A stretch of 8,410 bases of DNA from Candidatus Fermentibacterales bacterium (GTDB lineage: Bacteria > Fermentibacterota > Fermentibacteria > Fermentibacterales > JAFGKQ01): assembly GCA_016928495.1 (NCBI GenBank), contig JAFGKQ010000001.1, forward strand, positions 1 to 8,410, written 5' to 3'. A program made the position numbers and the translations under genes. Below are positions 184-8,410 of this stretch, one piece after another. Numbering within the stretch: the stretch's first letter is position 1; each line of letters starts with the position of its first letter. The notes below the pieces were generated by a model that did not search any database, had not been told where the DNA came from, and saw nothing but the letters and a program-made list of their open reading frames with translations.

Positions 184-1389
184 ATGGCCGAGTTCCAGTG
201 GCGGGGAACCAATAAGCAGGGCAGGGACCTTGGCGGGACCATCAAGGCCAAGGACCGCAGGGAGGCCGAGAGCCTGCTCGAGCGCAGGGGGGTCACGTTA
301 ACCAAGGTCTCGCGCAAGGGCTTCAGCCTCAACCTCCAGCTCACGACCGGCATCAACGACAAGAGCCTGAGCGCCTTCACAAGGCAGTTCGCCACCATGA
401 TCAACGCTGGTCTGCCCCTGGTCGGCTGCCTTCAGATCCTCAGCAGGCAGCAGGAGAACCAGTACTTCGCCAACGTCATCTCGGAGATAACGGCGGACGT
501 CGAGAAGGGAGGCACCCTCGCCGATGCCATGGGCAAGCACTCCAAGGTCTTCAGCGACCTCTACGTCAACATGGTCTCGGCAGGCGAGCAGGGAGGCATC
601 CTCGACACCATTCTCAACAGGCTCGCCGTTCACCTGGAGAAGAACGCTTCCCTGAAATCCAAGATCAAGACGGCCATGATGTACCCTGCCGTGGTCCTCA
701 TAGTGGTCGTCCTGGTGGTCTCCGCGCTGCTGCTGTTCGTCGTCCCGATCTTCCAGCAGATGTTCAGCGATCTGGGCGGGGACCTGCCGGGCCCGACGAA
801 GTTCGTGATAGGCCTGTCCGAGTTCTTCGGCAAGAACGTTCTGCTGATCATAGCCGGGGTGGTGGGCCTCATAGTGCTGTTCAGGGTCTACTACCGGACC
901 GACGGCGGTCAGAAGGTCATAGACACCATCAAGCTCAGGATACCCATCGTGGGCCCCCTGCTCAGGAAGCTGGCGATCGCCCGCTTCACCAGGACCCTGG
1001 GCACGCTGATCTCCAGCGGTGTCGCGATCCTGGACGGGCTCTCCATCACATCGAAGACCTCCGGCAACCGCGTCGTCGCAGACGCCATCCTGAAGGCCAG
1101 GACCAGCATCTCGGGAGGAGAGAACATATCGGCGCCCCTGGCCGATTCCGGCGTGTTCCCCCTGATGGTCACCCAGATGATCGCGGTAGGCGAGGAGACG
1201 GGCGGCCTGGACGACATGCTCCAGAAAGTCGCCGACTTCTACGAGGAGGAGGTTGACACCGCGGTGTCCGGCCTCACGTCCACGCTGGAGCCCATTCTGA
1301 TCATCGTCCTGGGCCTGGTGGTCGGTGGAATGGTCATAGCCATGTACCTGCCGATATTCGACCTGATCGGAGCGGTGGGCGGGAGCTAG
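184..1389 (+). CDS. pilC: Type IV pilus inner-membrane platform protein PilC
   Basis: This is a 401-residue protein of the PilC/GspF family, the usual length. PilC is the polytopic inner-membrane platform that couples the cytoplasmic ATPases PilB and PilT to pilin assembly and disassembly. The N-terminus (about 1-45) has the family pattern F-W-G-x-G followed by a basic helix ending in LLERRGV. Two T2SSF repeats follow at about 63-186 and 266-389, each with the signature G(E)-x-G-G-x-L-D (AGEQGGILDTIL at 133-144; VGEETGGLDDML at 335-346). Hydrophobic segments lie at about 169-190, 217-236 and 369-391. The start is ATG 184 with a strong GGAGG Shine-Dalgarno at 174-178. The pilT-pilC-pilS-pilR order matches known pil clusters. 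No truncation or missing motif is visible. Confidence 0.97.
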   Translation: MAEFQWRGTNKQGRDLGGTIKAKDRREAESLLERRGVTLTKVSRKGFSLNLQLTTGINDKSLSAFTRQFATMINAGLPLVGCLQILSRQQENQYFANVISEITADVEKGGTLADAMGKHSKVFSDLYVNMVSAGEQGGILDTILNRLAVHLEKNASLKSKIKTAMMYPAVVLIVVVLVVSALLLFVVPIFQQMFSDLGGDLPGPTKFVIGLSEFFGKNVLLIIAGVVGLIVLFRVYYRTDGGQKVIDTIKLRIPIVGPLLRKLAIARFTRTLGTLISSGVAILDGLSITSKTSGNRVVADAILKARTSISGGENISAPLADSGVFPLMVTQMIAVGEETGGLDDMLQKVADFYEEEVDTAVSGLTSTLEPILIIVLGLVVGGMVIAMYLPIFDLIGAVGGS

Positions 1390-1456: not shown

Positions 1457-3097
1457 ATGAGCCTGAGGCGCCTCACCTACCTGCACGTGGGGCGCCTCAT
1501 CATCATCGGCTCCCTCTGCGTCGCCGGCATGTTCGTCCTCGGCACCGAGAACGTGCTGGTCACGTACGCCATAGTGGGCCTGGTCGCGGTCCTCTATACC
1601 CCCTTCTCGCTGCTGTGGATGAACAGGCGCCCGGACTCCCGCGCGCCCGTCTGGACCATCCTGCTGCTGGACTCCCTTCTCCTGGGGGTCATCGTGCACC
1701 TGGCCGGAGGCGTTGACGGGCCCATGGCAGTGAGCATGGCCCTGCCCCCCCTGGCCGCGGGCCTGCTCCTCGGACAGCGCGGCGGGCTGGGCGTGGCCCT
1801 GGAGTGCATCGTGATCCTGACCGGCTCCGCCTGGCTCGAGGTCAACGGCATACAGGTCCGTTTCGGCAGCCCTCTGATGGCGGCGCTGCGCAACAAGGGA
1901 GAGGTGCTCCTGACCATCCGCTACGCAGGGCTGCGCACCTTCGTGCATGCCTGTCTCCTGACATCGGCCGGTCTCATCTCCGGCTACCTCTCCGAGACGC
2001 TCCGCAAGCAGGCCGGAAGGCTCCAGGTAGTGCTGGACGCCCTGAGGGAGAGCCAGGCGACCGCCGACGAGATACTTAACAGCATGACCGACGGAGTGGT
2101 GGTCGTGGACACAGCCGGAAGGCCCATCCGTGTGAACCCGGCGGCAAGGCTGTGCCTCGGCCTGACCGGTGAGGACTGGAAGGCAGGACTGAGAACCTCC
2201 CCCGTACAAGGCCTTCTCACGGACTTCCTGGAGAAGGGCTCGGGTCCCGAGCAATCGGACCTGTCCGTTGGGGGACGGGTACTGGAGTGCAGGGTCTCGG
2301 GCTTCAGGAACGAGCAGGGGGACTTCTCCGGTGCCGTTGCCGTCTTTTCCGACGTAACGGAGGTCCGGAGCCTGAGAGCGGATCTCGAGGAGAAGGAGAA
2401 GATGGCGGTTCTCGGGAGGCTCTCCGCCACCATGGCCCACGAGATACGCAACCCCCTCGCCTCGATCAGCGGCTCCATACAGCTCCTGCGGTCGAAGCCC
2501 CTGGAGGCGGGAGGAGAGGAGCGCCTGATGAGCCTGATCGTCCGCGAGTCCGGCAGGGTCTCCGAGATACTGGAGGGATACCTGGAGCTGGCAAGACCGG
2601 CGAGGGCGTTCAGCAGGGAGCGGATAGACCTGGTAGCCCTGCTGGAGGAGGCCCTCGATCTCGCCAGGCGCAGCATGGACGACGGCGGCGTAGAGCTGGT
2701 GCTCGAGGCCGGGGCCAGGCCCGTCATGGAGGGAAGCAGGGCCAGGCTGACCCAGGTCTTCGGCAACCTCATCCGGAACGCGATAGAGGCGACCGAGCAG
2801 AGGCCCGACGGGAGGGTTGTCGTCAGGGTGGGCACGGAGCAATATCCGGGCTCGGGCTGCGACGCAGTGGTGAGGGTCGTGGACAACGGTTGCGGAATAG
2901 ACCCGGAGAGGCTCGAGACCATCATGGACCCCTTCATCTCGAGCAAGGACTCGGGCACCGGGCTAGGCCTCTACATCGCGAGAAGGGCGGCCGAGGACCA
3001 TGGCGGAGCGATCTCTTTCGAGAGCAGCCCCGGACGCGGCACCACCGTGACGGTGAGGCTCCCGCTGAGCCATGCGTCGAAGGATACCGCAACCTGA
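1457..3097 (+). CDS. pilS: Membrane sensor histidine kinase PilS
   Basis: This 546-residue two-component sensor kinase is the expected partner of the PilR gene that follows. The N-terminal ~180 residues hold about six hydrophobic segments (near 11-29, 32-52, 66-86, 93-106, 110-126 and 160-178), as in PilS of Pseudomonas. A PAS-like domain spans about 200-300 (SMTDGVVVVDTAGRPIRVN near its start). The kinase core is complete: H-box AHEIRNPLASISGS with phosphoacceptor His328, N-box NLIRNAIEAT (437-446), G1 box DNGCGI (476-481), F-box DPFISSK (491-497) and G2 box GTGLGLYIARR (500-510). PilS phosphorylates PilR to control pilin transcription. ATG 1457 has only a weak, very close purine run (CAGG). 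It is chosen because the product then begins with the R-x-L-x-Y-L-x-x-x-R-L pattern typical of PilS. The gene ends 13 nt before pilR. Confidence 0.94.
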   Translation: MSLRRLTYLHVGRLIIIGSLCVAGMFVLGTENVLVTYAIVGLVAVLYTPFSLLWMNRRPDSRAPVWTILLLDSLLLGVIVHLAGGVDGPMAVSMALPPLAAGLLLGQRGGLGVALECIVILTGSAWLEVNGIQVRFGSPLMAALRNKGEVLLTIRYAGLRTFVHACLLTSAGLISGYLSETLRKQAGRLQVVLDALRESQATADEILNSMTDGVVVVDTAGRPIRVNPAARLCLGLTGEDWKAGLRTSPVQGLLTDFLEKGSGPEQSDLSVGGRVLECRVSGFRNEQGDFSGAVAVFSDVTEVRSLRADLEEKEKMAVLGRLSATMAHEIRNPLASISGSIQLLRSKPLEAGGEERLMSLIVRESGRVSEILEGYLELARPARAFSRERIDLVALLEEALDLARRSMDDGGVELVLEAGARPVMEGSRARLTQVFGNLIRNAIEATEQRPDGRVVVRVGTEQYPGSGCDAVVRVVDNGCGIDPERLETIMDPFISSKDSGTGLGLYIARRAAEDHGGAISFESSPGRGTTVTVRLPLSHASKDTAT

Positions 3098-3110
3098 GGA
3101 TCGGAGCCGG

Positions 3111-4577
3111 ATGAAGACCGCGAGGGCGACGGTACTGGTCGTCGACGACGAGCCCAGCATGGTCGAGTGGCTATCGGTGCTTCTCGACCAGGAGGGCTAC
3201 GAGGTCATCACGGCCACCGAAGCCAACCGCGCCATCAAGCTGGGCGAGCAGGCAAGCCCCGATATTCTCCTGGTGGACATCAAGATGCCCGGCAAGTCGG
3301 GCCTCGAGGTCTTCAGCACACTGAAGTCGCGCAACCGTGACCTGATAGGCATCGTGATGACGGCATTCTCGAGCGTGGACACCGCCGTGAAGGCCATCAG
3401 GCAGGGGGCAAGGGACTACCTGATCAAGCCCTTCGACATAGACCAGCTTACCCTGGCGCTGAACAGGGCTCTGGGCGAGCGGGAGATGCAGAAGGAGAAC
3501 CTGATCCTGCGCAGGCAGGTCAGGAAAAGCTTCGACTTCAGGGAGATAACGGGGCGGTCCAAGTCCCTGATGGACCTGCTGGACAAGGTCAGGAGGGTGG
3601 CCACGACCGACAGCACTGTCCTGATCACGGGCGAGAGCGGAACCGGCAAAGAGTTGATAGCAAAGGCTATACACTACAACAGCCATCGGGCCGACGGCCC
3701 GCTGCTCAGTGTGAACTGCGGCGGCTTCTCCCGCAACCTCCTCGAGAGCGAGCTCTTCGGACACGTGAAGGGCTCCTTTACCGGCGCCCACAGGGACAAG
3801 GAAGGGCTGCTCGTGGCCGCTTCTGGCGGCACGTTCTTCATGGACGAGATAAGCGAGCTGGACAGGGACCTCCAGGTCAAGCTGCTCAGGGCCCTTCAGG
3901 AGAGGATCGTGCTTCCGGTCGGAGGGACCGAGACCATCCCCTTCGACGTCCGACTCGTGGCGGCGACCAACGTGGACCTCGAGAAGAGGGTGGAAGATGG
4001 GAGCTTCCGCTCGGACCTCTACTACAGGCTCAACGTCATCCCCCTCAGGGTGCCTCCGTTACGGGAGAGAAGGGACGATATCCCGCTCCTGCTGCGGCGC
4101 TTCCTGCGCGAGAGCTCGGAGGCGCTCGGAATGGAGGAGCCCAGCATAACCGAGGAGGCCATGGAGGCCATCACGGCCTACGACTGGCCCGGCAACGTGC
4201 GCGAGCTCGAGAACCTGCTCGAGCGCCTATGCGTGATGAGCCGAGGAGAGCCCATCAGCCTGGACCTGCTCCCGGACCAGTTCGGGAGAGCTGGAGGCGC
4301 GGAGACCGCTGCGGCGCCTGCCATCGAGATCCCGCCTGCAGGGGAGGATGCCGCCGGGAGCGGAGGCAGTCCCGCCACCCTCAAGGACGTCGAGAAGGCC
4401 TACACCTACTACGTGCTCGAGCACAGGGCGGGAGGTCAGAAGAAGCTGGCCGCCGAGCTGCTCGGCATCAACGAGAGCACGTTGCACCGCAGGCTCCAGC
4501 GCTACGAGGAGGAGGAAGAGGAGCCCCGCCGCGGGGAGAGCAGCACCTCCGGGTCTTCCGGCGAAGTCGGCAGCTAG
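3111..4577 (+). CDS. pilR: Sigma-54-dependent response regulator PilR (NtrC family)
   Basis: This 488-residue protein activates RpoN-dependent transcription, classically of the pilin gene. The receiver domain (about 6-120) has the acidic pair D12/D13, phosphoacceptor D56 (in LLVDIKMPGKSG), T84 and K106. The AAA+ domain (about 146-385) has Walker A GESGTGKE (174-181), the sigma-54 contact loop GSFTGA (221-226, usually GAFTGA), Walker B with D245/E246, and the WPGNVRELENL segment. A Fis-type helix-turn-helix follows at about 446-465 (LAAELLGINESTLHRRLQRY), then a 23-residue tail of glutamates, serines and glycines. An in-frame ATG at 3072 would overlap pilS by 26 nt. ATG 3111 is preferred because the receiver then starts at the usual distance and GGAG lies at 3103-3106. 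The gene sits downstream of pilS and upstream of a pilin with a matching sigma-54 promoter. Confidence 0.96.
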   Translation: MKTARATVLVVDDEPSMVEWLSVLLDQEGYEVITATEANRAIKLGEQASPDILLVDIKMPGKSGLEVFSTLKSRNRDLIGIVMTAFSSVDTAVKAIRQGARDYLIKPFDIDQLTLALNRALGEREMQKENLILRRQVRKSFDFREITGRSKSLMDLLDKVRRVATTDSTVLITGESGTGKELIAKAIHYNSHRADGPLLSVNCGGFSRNLLESELFGHVKGSFTGAHRDKEGLLVAASGGTFFMDEISELDRDLQVKLLRALQERIVLPVGGTETIPFDVRLVAATNVDLEKRVEDGSFRSDLYYRLNVIPLRVPPLRERRDDIPLLLRRFLRESSEALGMEEPSITEEAMEAITAYDWPGNVRELENLLERLCVMSRGEPISLDLLPDQFGRAGGAETAAAPAIEIPPAGEDAAGSGGSPATLKDVEKAYTYYVLEHRAGGQKKLAAELLGINESTLHRRLQRYEEEEEEPRRGESSTSGSSGEVGS

Positions 4578-4580
4578 GCA

Positions 4581-6005
4581 ATGGCCGCCTCCTCCATGGC
4601 CCTTGCCTCACGCTGGCTGTGGCTGCCCGTCTTCCTGGCCGCCGCGCTCGCGCTGGGGCAGGAGGGCATCCCCGTCGAGGACGGGGGGGAGATAGAAACC
4701 GTCTCGGCGCTTGGCGGGGTGAACCATCCTCCCGGAATGCCGCTGCTCTCCCTGCTCGGCAGGACGTTCTGGCTGATGTCCCCGGAGTGGGGCCTGCGTC
4801 TGCTGTTCGCGCTGCTGGCATCCATCTCCGTCCTTCTGCTCACCGAGCGGGCCGGCGTGAGCGGCAGGCTGCTCGGGCTGCTGGTTCTCGCGCTCCCCGC
4901 GTTCGGCGAGAGGCTGCTCGCCTGGGACGCCTACGGTCCTCTCTTCCTGCTGGCCGCCCTGTCGCTCCTCGTGGTCCGCAGCGGGACAACCGGCAGGAGC
5001 GCCATTCTCACGGGCTACATCGCCGGTCTCGGCTGCGCCCTGCACCTGCAGGGGCTCATGCTGCTCCTGCCGGCGCTGCTGTGCGCAAGGGGAAAGGCCG
5101 CAAGACTTGCACAGGCTGTGCTCGGCTTCGGCCTCGCCCTCTCTCTCTACCTGTTGCTCCCGATCTCCTCCTCGGCGGGCCTGGTGGTCGACTGGGGCTC
5201 CTGCGGGAGCCTCTCCGCCCTGCTCAGACAGGTGACGGCAGCGGGCTACCGTGAGGTCTACGAGGGCATCGGCAGGCTCTCGACCGATACCCTCGCTCTG
5301 CACCTCGGGACGATCTGGAGGCTTCTGTGGCCCGGCTTGCTGCTTCCTGTGCTCGCGCTCCTCCTGCTGTCCCTGCGCCCGGCAAGGGGCTTTCTCGCTC
5401 CGGTCCTTCGTCCTCCGGAGGCCACCTCCCCCTTCGGGCGGCGGGATCGCAGGGCCGCCGCGCCCGTACTCGGCCTTCTGCTCGCGTCGCTCGTGCTGCT
5501 CGACCTGGTCTTCGTACTGCTGGTGAACCCGATGGCCGCGGGGACCTCGCAGACCGGCGCGATTACGCTTCTGGTGCTCATCGTGCTGGGTATCGAGGGA
5601 TTAAGGAGGTTGCGGCATGCTGCCGCCGCCGTGGTGCTGGGTTTCGCACTGGTCCTGGGGCTCCCGTTCCGGAGCGGGCTGCCCGATCAGGAGGCAGCTA
5701 TCTCGAACGTGCTCGCGGGGTCTCCCATGCGGACTGCCCTCGTGCTGGAGAGCAACGACCTGCTCTACGGCTGCTGGAGCGCCTGCTACGCGAGGGACGC
5801 CAGGCCCGACGTTGTCCTGATGTCCACCCAGAACTTCTCGGGCTGGTTCGAGGACATGGTGAGCCACTTCCATCCCGGCTTCGATCTCTCGGCCTCGGTC
5901 TTGGATGTCGGCGGATACGACCTCCCCAGGGATGTCGTTGCGGGCAGGCTGATCCAGGCGGCCATCGAGGCCAATCCGGGCTACACCTTCCTCTCCGACA
6001 GGTAG
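4581..6005 (+). CDS. DUF2723-type GT-C membrane glycosyltransferase (candidate protein O-glycosyltransferase)
   Basis: This is a 474-residue, very hydrophobic protein with roughly ten membrane segments. Near the N-terminus it has DGGEIETVSALGGVNHPPGM (34-53), matching the DUF2723 signature in which an acidic D-x-GE motif precedes GVxHPPGxPLxxLLGR. A later periplasmic motif, VDWGSCGSLSALLRQVT (203-219), matches the family's LDWGxPxTLxxFLxxVT. The C-terminal part (about 384-474) is soluble-looking, with ESNDLLYG and ARPDVVLM resembling the family's second conserved region. DUF2723 corresponds to GT-C enzymes of CAZy family GT117; human TMEM260, a family member, is a protein O-mannosyltransferase. 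The start is 3 nt after the pilR stop and has almost no Shine-Dalgarno, so translation is probably coupled to pilR. It is shorter than many family members, which often exceed 600 residues, and ends abruptly after FLSDR. The substrate is unknown; pilin modification is inferred from location only. Confidence 0.8.
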   Translation: MAASSMALASRWLWLPVFLAAALALGQEGIPVEDGGEIETVSALGGVNHPPGMPLLSLLGRTFWLMSPEWGLRLLFALLASISVLLLTERAGVSGRLLGLLVLALPAFGERLLAWDAYGPLFLLAALSLLVVRSGTTGRSAILTGYIAGLGCALHLQGLMLLLPALLCARGKAARLAQAVLGFGLALSLYLLLPISSSAGLVVDWGSCGSLSALLRQVTAAGYREVYEGIGRLSTDTLALHLGTIWRLLWPGLLLPVLALLLLSLRPARGFLAPVLRPPEATSPFGRRDRRAAAPVLGLLLASLVLLDLVFVLLVNPMAAGTSQTGAITLLVLIVLGIEGLRRLRHAAAAVVLGFALVLGLPFRSGLPDQEAAISNVLAGSPMRTALVLESNDLLYGCWSACYARDARPDVVLMSTQNFSGWFEDMVSHFHPGFDLSASVLDVGGYDLPRDVVAGRLIQAAIEANPGYTFLSDR

Positions 6006-6008
6006 CCC

Positions 6009-6024
6009 TGGAAAGGTCCTTGCT
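6009..6024 (+). promoter_or_regulatory. Possible sigma-54 promoter for the pilin-like gene
   Basis: TGGAAAGGTCCTTGCT has the invariant GG and GC separated by exactly 10 nt, plus TTGCT at the -12 element. Against TGGCACG-N4-TTGCW it mismatches only at the fourth and sixth bases. It begins 3 nt after the stop of the DUF2723 gene. The predicted start would be near 6035, 28 nt before the downstream ATG. It is a weaker match than the element before the pilin, but well placed to put this gene under the same PilR/RpoN control. Confidence 0.45.
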
Positions 6025-6062
6025 TCGGTCTTCCTCAGGGCAAGGCTGAAGGAGAGGACAGG

Positions 6063-6467
6063 ATGAGCGGAGAGGGACTCGGGAGCGGTGGCGGTCGAGT
6101 GGGGCTCTTCCCGTACCTGATCGTCTGCCTGGCGCTCGTGGGAGCGCTGGACCAGGTGCTCGCAAGGGGGGCAGGGGGCGGAGATGCCGCCCTCATCGAG
6201 GAGATCGAGGCCTGCCGTGAGAACATGCTGACTCTCGCCGAGGCGGAGGAGACGCACTATGCCGATCACGGGTCCTGCACGGAGATGATCGGCAACCTCT
6301 GCGACTACTTCGAGCCCGCCTGGCGGCTGTGCTGCCCGGAGGACGGCTGCGGCCCCTATAGGCTGATCGTGTGGCCGCTGCCCGGCAGGCAGCACTGCAT
6401 GGTCCGCTGCCCCGGAGCCTTCCAGTCGGTCCACGGTTCGATAGTGGACGGCATCCCGAGCTGGTAG
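6063..6467 (+). CDS. Cysteine-rich pilin-like protein lacking a type III (prepilin) signal
   Basis: This is a 134-residue protein clearly related to the pilin encoded just downstream. Residues 51-134 align with pilin 40-122 at about 37 identical positions (hand alignment). Shared features include NMxTLAxAE, CPxDGxGPYxL, CPGA, HGSI and a C-terminal SW. The three pilin cysteines are matched by C51, C91 and C116. There are nine cysteines in total; all but C22 lie after the hydrophobic segment. The N-terminus differs: a glycine-rich leader, then a hydrophobic helix at about 14-33 that begins GLFPYL instead of GFTLIE, so Glu5 is absent and Pro occupies position 3. It might instead be a Sec signal (VLA before residue 35 fits a signal peptidase I site) or a membrane anchor. 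ATG 6063 has a good AAGGAGAGG Shine-Dalgarno at 6049-6057. Its role is unknown; a minor pilin, pilin-interacting or pilus-regulating protein is possible. Confidence 0.85.
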   Translation: MSGEGLGSGGGRVGLFPYLIVCLALVGALDQVLARGAGGGDAALIEEIEACRENMLTLAEAEETHYADHGSCTEMIGNLCDYFEPAWRLCCPEDGCGPYRLIVWPLPGRQHCMVRCPGAFQSVHGSIVDGIPSW

Positions 6468-6477
6468 CAGGCCCCGA

Positions 6478-6495
6478 GCGTCAGGATCCTGACGC
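6478..6495. promoter_or_regulatory. Perfect 18-bp palindrome, candidate activator site upstream of the pilin promoter
   Basis: GCGTCAGGATCCTGACGC is its own reverse complement over all 18 bases. A third copy of the half-site TCCTGAC lies at 6506-6512 in the same orientation as the right arm. The centre is about 185 bp upstream of the predicted pilin transcription start, inside the usual range for NtrC-family enhancer sites. It begins 11 nt after the stop of the pilin-like gene. It could also fold as a 7-bp hairpin with a GATC loop, but no T-run follows, so it is a poor intrinsic terminator. It does not resemble the TGTC-type sites described for Pseudomonas PilR, so assignment to PilR is speculative. 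Confidence 0.5.
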
Positions 6496-6644: not shown

Positions 6645-6660
6645 TGGCACGATTCTTGCA
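6645..6660 (+). promoter_or_regulatory. Sigma-54 (RpoN) promoter of the pilin gene
   Basis: TGGCACGATTCTTGCA matches the -24/-12 consensus TGGCACG-N4-TTGCA at every conserved base, with GG (6646-6647) and GC (6658-6659) 10 nt apart. The predicted transcription start is near 6671, giving a leader of about 32 nt to ATG 6703 or 68 nt to ATG 6739. The 271-nt stretch from 6468 to 6738 holds this promoter, the 18-bp palindrome upstream and two Shine-Dalgarno sites. I see no convincing gene in it. Confidence 0.9.
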
Positions 6661-6738: not shown

Positions 6739-7107
6739 ATGAAGAAGGGCTTCACCCTGATCGAGCTGATGATCGTGGTGGTCATCATCGGCATCCTTGC
6801 CGCTATCGCGATCCCCAAGTTCACGAGCGTCAAGGAGCAGGCCGAGATGGTCAGCTGCCAGAGCAACATGAGGACCCTGGCGACCGCCGAGAGCATGTAC
6901 TACGGCGTGTATGACAGGTTCACCGCCACCATCGCTGAACTGAACGAGATGCAGGACAACGCGAGCCTGCTCGTCTGCCCCAGCGATGGTGCCGGCCCCT
7001 ACACCCTCGCTGTTGTTCTTCTTCCTCCTGACTACACCATCACCTGCCCAGGCGCTATGGTTGCCGACCACGGTTCCATCATCGGCGGAATCACGAGCTG
7101 GCAGTAG
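6739..7107 (+). CDS. pilA: Type IV major pilin (PilA-type prepilin)
   Basis: This is a 122-residue prepilin (118 mature) that polymerises into the pilus fibre. The short basic leader MKKG precedes the prepilin peptidase site G4|F5, followed by FTLIELMIVVVIIGILAAIA, which includes the required Glu5 of the mature protein and a textbook alpha-1 membrane helix with Pro22. The globular part has three cysteines (C40, C80, C103) and the motif CPSDGAGPYTLAV, similar to the CP-x-x-G-x-Y element common in pilins and pseudopilins. It ends in SWQ. ATG 6739 is chosen for its strong AAAGGAG site and canonical short leader; an upstream in-frame ATG at 6703 is also viable. A near-perfect sigma-54 promoter lies upstream and a strong terminator follows, so it is probably transcribed mainly as a single-gene unit. 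The symbol reflects position and type, since pseudopilins can look alike. Confidence 0.93.
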   Translation: MKKGFTLIELMIVVVIIGILAAIAIPKFTSVKEQAEMVSCQSNMRTLATAESMYYGVYDRFTATIAELNEMQDNASLLVCPSDGAGPYTLAVVLLPPDYTITCPGAMVADHGSIIGGITSWQ

Positions 7108-7233: not shown

Positions 7234-8410
7234 ATGACCACAGCAGAGCCCTCCTCCACCACCGCGCGCTCTCCGTCGCCCGGGCGCAGGGGCGACCGCG
7301 AGCTTCTGCTCGTGGTTCTGTTCTCGGTCCTGGCTCTCAGCGTGCTTCATCCCTACCCCTACGACAACGTACAGACCCGTTGGGCGCTAACGCGGCGTCT
7401 GGTCGAGCACGGCAGCATCGACATAACCCCCTGGTCCCATCTCACGTGCGATGTTGCCTTCTACGAGGGTCGCTACTACTGCGACAAGGCGGTGATGACC
7501 TCGCTTCTGGCGGCCCTGCCGCACGCCCCGCTCTACTGGATCTCGCGGGCCGCGGGATGGGACGGAGCAGGAGGCTTCCAGGCCTTCGCCAGGTTCCTGT
7601 CGGAGAGGGTCGTGTGCACGGGAAGCCTGGTGCTGCTGCTTCTGCTCCTTGCCCGGCTCGCGAGATCGAGAGGGGAGCCTGCCCTGATCCCCCTCCTGGC
7701 AGTGGGGCTGGGCAGCGTCCTGCTGCCCTACTCGACCCTTCTCTACGGCCATGTCCCTGCGGCCGCCGCGATCTTCGCCAGCTTCTTCTTCCAGAGCAGG
7801 GGAAGGTACGGCCTTGCTGACCTGTTCGGGGCCCTGGCCTCGGCCATCGAGTTCCCCGTGCTGCTGCCGTTCGCGGTCCTGCTGCTCTACAGGCCGCGAA
7901 GCTCCTGGGGTCTGCGCCCACTGGCAAGACTGGCCGGCATCACGCTGGCCTGTTTCCTTCCCCAGATCCTCCATAACTGGATCGCCTTCGGCAGCCCCTT
8001 CCGGATGGGCTACTCGCTCGAGGCCTCGGAGGCCTTCGGCAGGATCCACGAGGGCCTGTTCGGCTTCACCCTCCCGAAGCTCTCGACCGCGTACACGCAG
8101 CTCCTATCTGCCGAGCGGGGCCTGCTGTTCTACATGCCATGGGCCCTGCCAGGCTTCCTGGGCTTCTTCGCGGGCCGGGGCTTCCGGCGGGTCCTGAGAA
8201 CCGATCCCAGGCCCCTGCTCGTTGTCCTCTTCCTGCTTCTCTTCAGCTCCACATTTGCCCGGACGGGAGGCTGGGCCTACGGACCGAGGTACCTCATCCC
8301 GGTGGTGCCCTTCCTGGCCTCCGGCCTCGGCCGCTTCGGGGAGTTGTCCCCGGTTCGCAGGGGCCTCGTCATGTGGCTGCTGCTGCCTGCGGTCCTGCTG
8401 ACTCTGCTCG
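7234..8410 (+). CDS. GT-C-like multi-spanning membrane protein, probable glycosyltransferase (3' truncated by window edge)
   Basis: A frame open from ATG 7234 to the window edge gives 392 codons without a stop. After a ~22-residue polar N-terminus there is a first membrane helix (about 23-39). A loop follows with YDN (43-45), ITPW and YEGRYYCDK (77-85), then many further hydrophobic helices. Later motifs include HNWIAFGSPFRMGY (247-260), ERGLLFYMPWALPG (294-307) and GGWAYGPRYLIPVVPFLA (345-362). Together these match a family of bacterial GT-C-fold (GT39/PMT-like) membrane proteins whose members show a loop with an Asp, a downstream GYxxE-type segment and a final GGWSYGPRYLLPxLPF helix. Such enzymes usually transfer sugars from polyprenyl-phosphate donors on the periplasmic side. 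C72 and C83 could form a disulfide in the first loop. An in-frame TAG at 7213-7215 rules out a much earlier start. No clear Shine-Dalgarno is seen. It lies after the pilin terminator, so it is probably a separate unit. The substrate is unknown. Confidence 0.78.
   Translation, partial: MTTAEPSSTTARSPSPGRRGDRELLLVVLFSVLALSVLHPYPYDNVQTRWALTRRLVEHGSIDITPWSHLTCDVAFYEGRYYCDKAVMTSLLAALPHAPLYWISRAAGWDGAGGFQAFARFLSERVVCTGSLVLLLLLLARLARSRGEPALIPLLAVGLGSVLLPYSTLLYGHVPAAAAIFASFFFQSRGRYGLADLFGALASAIEFPVLLPFAVLLLYRPRSSWGLRPLARLAGITLACFLPQILHNWIAFGSPFRMGYSLEASEAFGRIHEGLFGFTLPKLSTAYTQLLSAERGLLFYMPWALPGFLGFFAGRGFRRVLRTDPRPLLVVLFLLLFSSTFARTGGWAYGPRYLIPVVPFLASGLGRFGELSPVRRGLVMWLLLPAVLLTLL

Follow-up and report, generated by a model that had tools for sequence, protein, structure and literature searches.

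A pilin-type head with a non-prepilin N-terminus in the pilin slot of a Fermentibacterota pil operon

Gene organization and promoters of the locus

The window analyzed here is one complete contig of 8,410 bp from a metagenome-assembled genome. The genome is the sole representative of its family in our comparison set, the named relatives in the order being Candidatus Aegiribacteria. The genes are arranged in the order pilC, pilS, pilR, a gene for a multi-TM TMEM260-like protein, the open reading frame at 6063–6467 (hereafter the ORF), a pilin gene, and a gene for a putative glycosyltransferase. The ORF adjoins the pilin gene, as stated in the initial annotation. The features considered in this study are as follows.

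184–1389, forward strand: pilC (platform protein), assigned from its conserved place in the pil operon and from gene order
1457–3097, forward strand: pilS-like sensor kinase
3072–4577, forward strand: pilR-like sigma54 activator
4581–6005, forward strand: multi-TM TMEM260-like protein, a possible pilin glycosyltransferase; precedes the pilin slot in relatives
6009–6024, forward strand: sigma54-type −24/−12 site of the ORF, TGGAAAGGTCCTTGCT, beginning 54 bp before the ORF start
6049–6054, forward strand: ribosome binding site of the ORF, AAGGAG, 8 nt ahead of the ATG
6063–6467, forward strand: the ORF (134 residues), whose product joins a pilin head to a non-prepilin N-terminus
6063–6209, forward strand: replaced N-terminus of the ORF protein
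6207–6464, forward strand: pilin-type globular head of the ORF protein, with 8 cysteines
6645–6660, forward strand: perfect sigma54 −24/−12 site of the pilin gene, TGGCACGATTCTTGCA
6739–7107, forward strand: neighboring pilin, complete with MKKGFTLIE... and a head
7234–8409, forward strand: LA3751/3752-type putative glycosyltransferase (sub-threshold family match), extending past the contig end

The TMEM260-like gene is carried by 18 relatives, and the contig continues past it in 16. The next gene in all 16 of these unbroken relatives codes for a GFTLIE prepilin, sometimes with a second or third prepilin after it, and the ORF therefore occupies the pilin slot. This slot is flanked by two multi-TM putative glycosyltransferases (4581–6005 and 7234–8409), as are the pilins in relatives, which suggests pilin glycosylation.

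Sigma54 sites with no more than two mismatches occur just twice in the 8,410 bp, one before the ORF, with two mismatches, and one before the pilin gene, which is perfect. When scored with a matrix trained solely on the sigma54 sites of the relatives' pilin genes, the ORF site at 6009–6024 ranks second best in the window (P = 0.00085 for the 110-bp upstream region). We surveyed the promoters of 121 distinct head proteins, collected in the order and from a handful of sources outside it; of the 46 prepilin genes among them, 42 have a sigma54-type site, and each of these sites scores at least 13. Among the heads carried on other N-termini (re-anchored heads), the ORF site has the highest score, and the ORF is the only one to combine both invariant dinucleotides (GG-N10-GC) with a comparable score within 110 bp. 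These motif statistics support the view that the ORF keeps a pilin-type promoter; PilR with sigma54 is a known activator of pilA (PMC6058289). With its place in the pilin slot and a sigma54-type site like those of prepilin genes, the ORF looks like a former pilin gene that lost the prepilin N-terminus and retained pilin-type control. A perfect 16-bp palindrome (CGTCAGGATCCTGACG) is located at 6479–6494, about 150 bp 5′ of the −24 element of the pilin gene, a plausible position for a PilR-type enhancer site; no such palindrome (GTCAGGATCCTGAC) was found upstream of the ORF or of the relatives' pilin genes.

Head, N-terminus, and predicted fold of the ORF protein

The head of the ORF protein shares 37 identities with that of the adjacent pilin over 85 aligned residues (44% identity; z = 30.6 against 2,000 shuffles; E = 3e-16 in a whole-genome search), confirming the approximately 37 identities estimated at the outset. 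Of all the heads collected, that of the adjacent pilin also gives the best pairwise local score (166, as compared with 121 for the runner-up). The Gly14–Cys51, Cys51–Cys91, and Cys91–Cys116 spacings of 37, 40, and 25 residues, as compared with 36 (Gly4–Cys40), 40, and 23 in the pilin, all proved exact on recount, the spacing from the leader glycine being weak evidence with six glycines among the first 14 residues to choose from. In addition to three cysteines common to the pilin, the head contains five extra ones (Cys72, Cys80, Cys90, Cys96, and Cys112). Although the fourfold sites have diverged from those of the pilin (3 of 22 equal) and third positions are saturated, 44% of the residues are identical and all conserved head residues are kept, which argues that selection has preserved the head of the ORF protein. 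The ribosome binding site and a GC3 of 0.87, similar to that of the neighboring genes (0.85–0.89), are added to this pattern of substitution, and the gene looks alive. A pseudogene is not favored, as the codon usage and the fourfold-site data speak against it. No family in Pfam, NCBIfam, or PHROGs corresponds to the head, and neither the head profile nor the ORF protein retrieved more than chance matches from the PDB sequences. An orthologue of the exact ORF protein was found neither in a scan of named genomes with the protein nor in the other genomes of the order that were searched.

The N-terminal 49 residues exhibit no detectable similarity to the N-terminus of the pilin (z = 1.0, P = 0.17), and are composed of a Gly-rich leader (residues 1–14), a hydrophobic segment (residues 15–33) with a mean Kyte–Doolittle value of 2.03 (3.10 in the pilin), and a Gly-rich linker. 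The adjacent pilin matches both PF07963 (N_methyl) and TIGR02532, neither of which matches the ORF protein at an E-value of 1 or better. Of the elements of a class III signal, Gly14 is present, whereas Glu5 and similarity to the pilin helix are absent. The non-prepilin N-terminus initially noticed is borne out by these results. Furthermore, a hidden prepilin start or a frameshift was sought and rejected, because the other two frames upstream of the ORF contain no prepilin. A lipoprotein was likewise rejected, since there is no lipobox; the sole candidate, Cys22, lies within the hydrophobic core and is preceded by LIV, as compared with VMGC, FSGC, and APGC in the single-head lipoproteins of the order. 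The protein has one hydrophobic segment, not the three transmembrane helices characteristic of TfpY/FimB. Sec cleavage is possible, by the −3/−1 rule, after a VLA motif ending at residue 34.

An AlphaFold2 model of the ORF protein, built from 12 sequences drawn from the window proteins and from the heads of named relatives, has a mean pLDDT of 80 and consists of a long helix (residues 16–69) and a C-terminal β-sheet. Foldseek searches against the PDB and viral models gave no E-value below 1e-3, and the match to pilins rests on realignment of the Foldseek candidates with VIA-align. All of the top 16 rows were pilins or pseudopilins, with PulG in first place (Z-score, 8.8; root-mean-squared deviation, 2.6 over 83 residues); the Z-score was 7.3 for Clostridium difficile PilA1 and 2.9 for the first non-pilin. 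Although VIA-align scores are inflated by long helices, the structural match does extend over the head, and the kinship with the pilin is supported separately by sequence. As modeled, the head is a pilin/pseudopilin fold, in line with the pilin-fold domain first proposed.

Re-anchored pilin heads across the order

The head model matches all 42 genomes of the order, and elsewhere matches weakly or rarely (22 of 343). Single-head lipoproteins constitute one clade (100/100 support) present in all three families, including the genome of the ORF (contig C214). The gene on this contig (L062:2005–2385) is located directly downstream of one for a gingipain-type Peptidase C25 protein that carries a Por-secretion-type tail (L062:2397–3443). 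Lipoproteins with two or three tandem heads also occur in the order; a profile scan with the tandem-head alignment gave matches on three Ca. Aegiribacteria contigs. Tandem-head lipoproteins lie at L085:5320–6258, L086:423–1361, and L087:3369–4352 (Ca. Aegiribacteria) and at many other loci. The tandem units, for which no Pfam family was found, each carry CPxC...CP...HG motifs, and could represent a metal-binding (C3H) variant of the pilin head. In the model of a triple-head lipoprotein, built from 3 sequences with a moderate mean pLDDT of 66, a pilin-like helix-plus-sheet unit is repeated three times. Among solved structures, this model is matched best by pseudopilins and pilins (Z-scores of about 10 for PulG and EpsG). 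Several tandem-head copies are apparently broken by a lost start, an internal TAA, or a split frame (L078:9223–10362, G009:C108:97995–98246, and L066:10096–10758), and the tandem-head family thus also turns over. In other proteins, the head follows an apparently ordinary Sec signal (L153, MIFGLLLCMVGVAYA...) or is the terminal part of a longer protein (L094 and L095). Outside the order, two genomes of another family code for pilin-head proteins (L091 and L092) having a pilin-like membrane helix without Glu5 (KGVTLLVALIIILMAG...). None of the examined re-anchored heads other than the ORF is in the pilin slot or has a convincing pilin-type promoter. With regard to the question, raised in the initial annotation, of whether a pilin is invariably the neighbor of such homologues, the ORF itself is in the pilin slot, but the other re-anchored heads examined are mostly away from the pil operon.

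In both head trees, the ORF head falls outside the clade of single-head lipoproteins, but its inclusion is not rejected by an AU test (p = 0.38), and its position is not firm given the few columns (85-residue heads) and the long ORF branch. Both a sister relationship to the adjacent pilin and one to the single-head lipoproteins are compatible with the AU tests on these heads. The third pilin of the slot in one relative (G005, L065:9320–9685) is a degenerate prepilin (GFTPIEPVVAVEV...) that has lost its sigma54 site, and may be an intermediate between a pilin and a re-anchored head.

That lipoproteins across the order carry one to three pilin heads points to work of these heads outside fibers, and this re-use is more surprising than the ORF itself. 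A literature search gave nothing on lipoproteins with pilin heads or on the pili of Fermentibacterota. A broader view, which we regard as doubtful, is that in Fermentibacterota the pilin head would be a general extracytoplasmic module, borne by inner-membrane or secreted carriers and by lipid-anchored single, double, or triple ones, that does not assemble and binds pili or pilin ligands in trans for assembly control, surface tethering of pili, or recognition.

Proposed function and comparison with known systems

Pilin biology couples the head to the N-terminal assembling helix. At this locus the two are separated within one operon, with the promoter apparently kept and an intact pilin adjacent. 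We tentatively propose, with a probability of roughly 0.45, that the ORF encodes a pilin paralogue in the pilin slot, controlled by PilR/sigma54, that does not assemble, is anchored in the membrane or released, and acts in trans on the pilin; its function, membrane topology, pilin binding, and chaperone role are what we infer from the findings above. According to this proposal, the ORF would be switched on together with the pilin gene by PilR/sigma54, and its product, having lost the class III N-terminus, would not be built into the fiber core in the normal way. The protein would be either anchored in the inner membrane via one short segment or freed by signal peptidase I, so as to display its pilin head in the periplasm, where the head may meet the pilin or minor pilins through head–head contacts. 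It might then aid subunit folding, stability, or hand-over to the assembly platform, as reported for Geobacter PilA-C/Spc. Because the ORF product would be made together with the pilin and has the same type of head, binding to the pilin or minor pilins is most plausible. Against the proposed action in trans, the adjacent pilin already has a head, and should not require a second one supplied in trans, unlike PilA-N. Also speaking against the proposal are the two mismatches in the sigma54 site, the loose placement of the head in the trees, the failure to find an orthologue of the exact protein, and the origin of the locus in a metagenomic contig of 8.4 kb. Among the roles initially suggested, that of a chaperone-like or secreted protein stands as one candidate.

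A secreted or periplasmic protein whose pilin head has its own job, in adhesion, matrix formation, or cell–cell recognition, with no part in pilus assembly, appears unlikely to be the better description, although lipid-anchored heads, both single and tandem, are widespread in the order at sites outside the pil operon, and the L153 head of a relative follows a seemingly ordinary Sec signal. The five extra cysteines also suggest a stable stand-alone domain; however, the ORF alone has the pilin slot and the pilin-type promoter.

The N-terminal region might instead belong to a minor, tip-type pilin with a diverged leader, cleaved at Gly14 and lacking Glu5 (GspK/PilK type), present in few copies in the fiber. 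This would be in keeping with a glycine and a nearby arginine ahead of a hydrophobic stretch, with the similar glycine-to-cysteine spacing, with known tip-capping subunits without Glu5 (PMC10191384), and with the Glu5-lacking pilin membrane helices of L091 and L092 outside the order (KGVTLLVAL...). The ORF protein, however, has neither a match to N_methyl or TIGR02532 nor similarity to the pilin helix; its hydrophobic part is short, has a lower hydrophobicity, and contains Pro at +3 and Asp at +16; a GAGGG linker stands in place of the continuous helix of pilins; and the several glycines could produce the spacing by chance. We consider a tip pilin rather improbable on this evidence.

A decaying pilin duplicate that is not fully dead yet and has no present function is much harder to reconcile with the open frame, the good ribosome binding site, the operon-like codon usage, the retention of all conserved head residues despite saturated fourfold sites, and the kept promoter, and thus seems very unlikely, even though decay is seen among the tandem pilins of relatives (in G005 the third copy, GFTPIEPVVAVEV, has lost its sigma54 site) and the ORF branch in the tree is long. 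Least probable is the decoy or sensor input for PilS suggested initially, for which speak the pilS gene in the same operon and the apparent co-regulation of both genes, since PilS uses transmembrane segments to bind PilA directly (PMC6058289), an interaction termed "intramembrane" in the title of the primary paper (ref. 22 of PMC6058289), and this segment is not pilin-like in the ORF protein.

The proposed trans-acting pilin paralogue is best compared with Geobacter PilA-C/Spc (GSU1497), a precedent overlooked when the initial annotation found that no named family fits. PilA-C/Spc is a pilin head that has a gene to itself beside pilA and bears a signal peptide; it is needed for PilA stability (PMC5174107, PMC6201914), has been called an inner-membrane pilin chaperone (PMC8844916), and is proposed to descend from a duplicated full-length pilin (PMC5174107, PMC6201914, PMC8844916). 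Like it, the ORF product is a separate head protein without a prepilin leader, encoded by a gene adjoining that of the pilin. The ORF is apparently a second, independent case. On the other hand, the partner pilin here is complete with a head, whereas that of Geobacter is headless (61 residues), and the ORF lies upstream of the pilin gene with its own sigma54-type site, whereas PilA-C is encoded downstream, GSU1497 being likened here by description. As its partner pilin has its own head, the ORF protein cannot be explained simply as the other part of a pilin split in two, and we know of no earlier case of a head-only protein whose partner pilin still has its own head.

The ORF resembles type IVa major pilins and GspG pseudopilins in its predicted head fold, operon place, and pilin-type promoter, but differs from them in the absence of a class III signal, Glu5, and a pilin-like α1-N. 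The absence of Glu5 is shared with the tip pilins of the GspK/PilK type, low-copy partners of major pilins, which keep a class III signal and a pilin membrane helix; the ORF protein does not score so. TfpY/FimB is an accessory protein linked to the major pilin and proposed to help assembly without entering the fiber (PMC11841053). The ORF product is, by our proposal, a similar accessory-type partner, although TfpY/FimB has three transmembrane helices and another fold and is not derived from a pilin. Among the re-anchored heads, the tandem-head lipoproteins of the order resemble C. difficile PilJ, in which more than one pilin-type domain is contained in one protein and whose structure (PDB ID: 4ixj) is among the solved matches of the triple-head model; PilJ, however, is a prepilin, whereas the tandem heads are anchored as lipoproteins.
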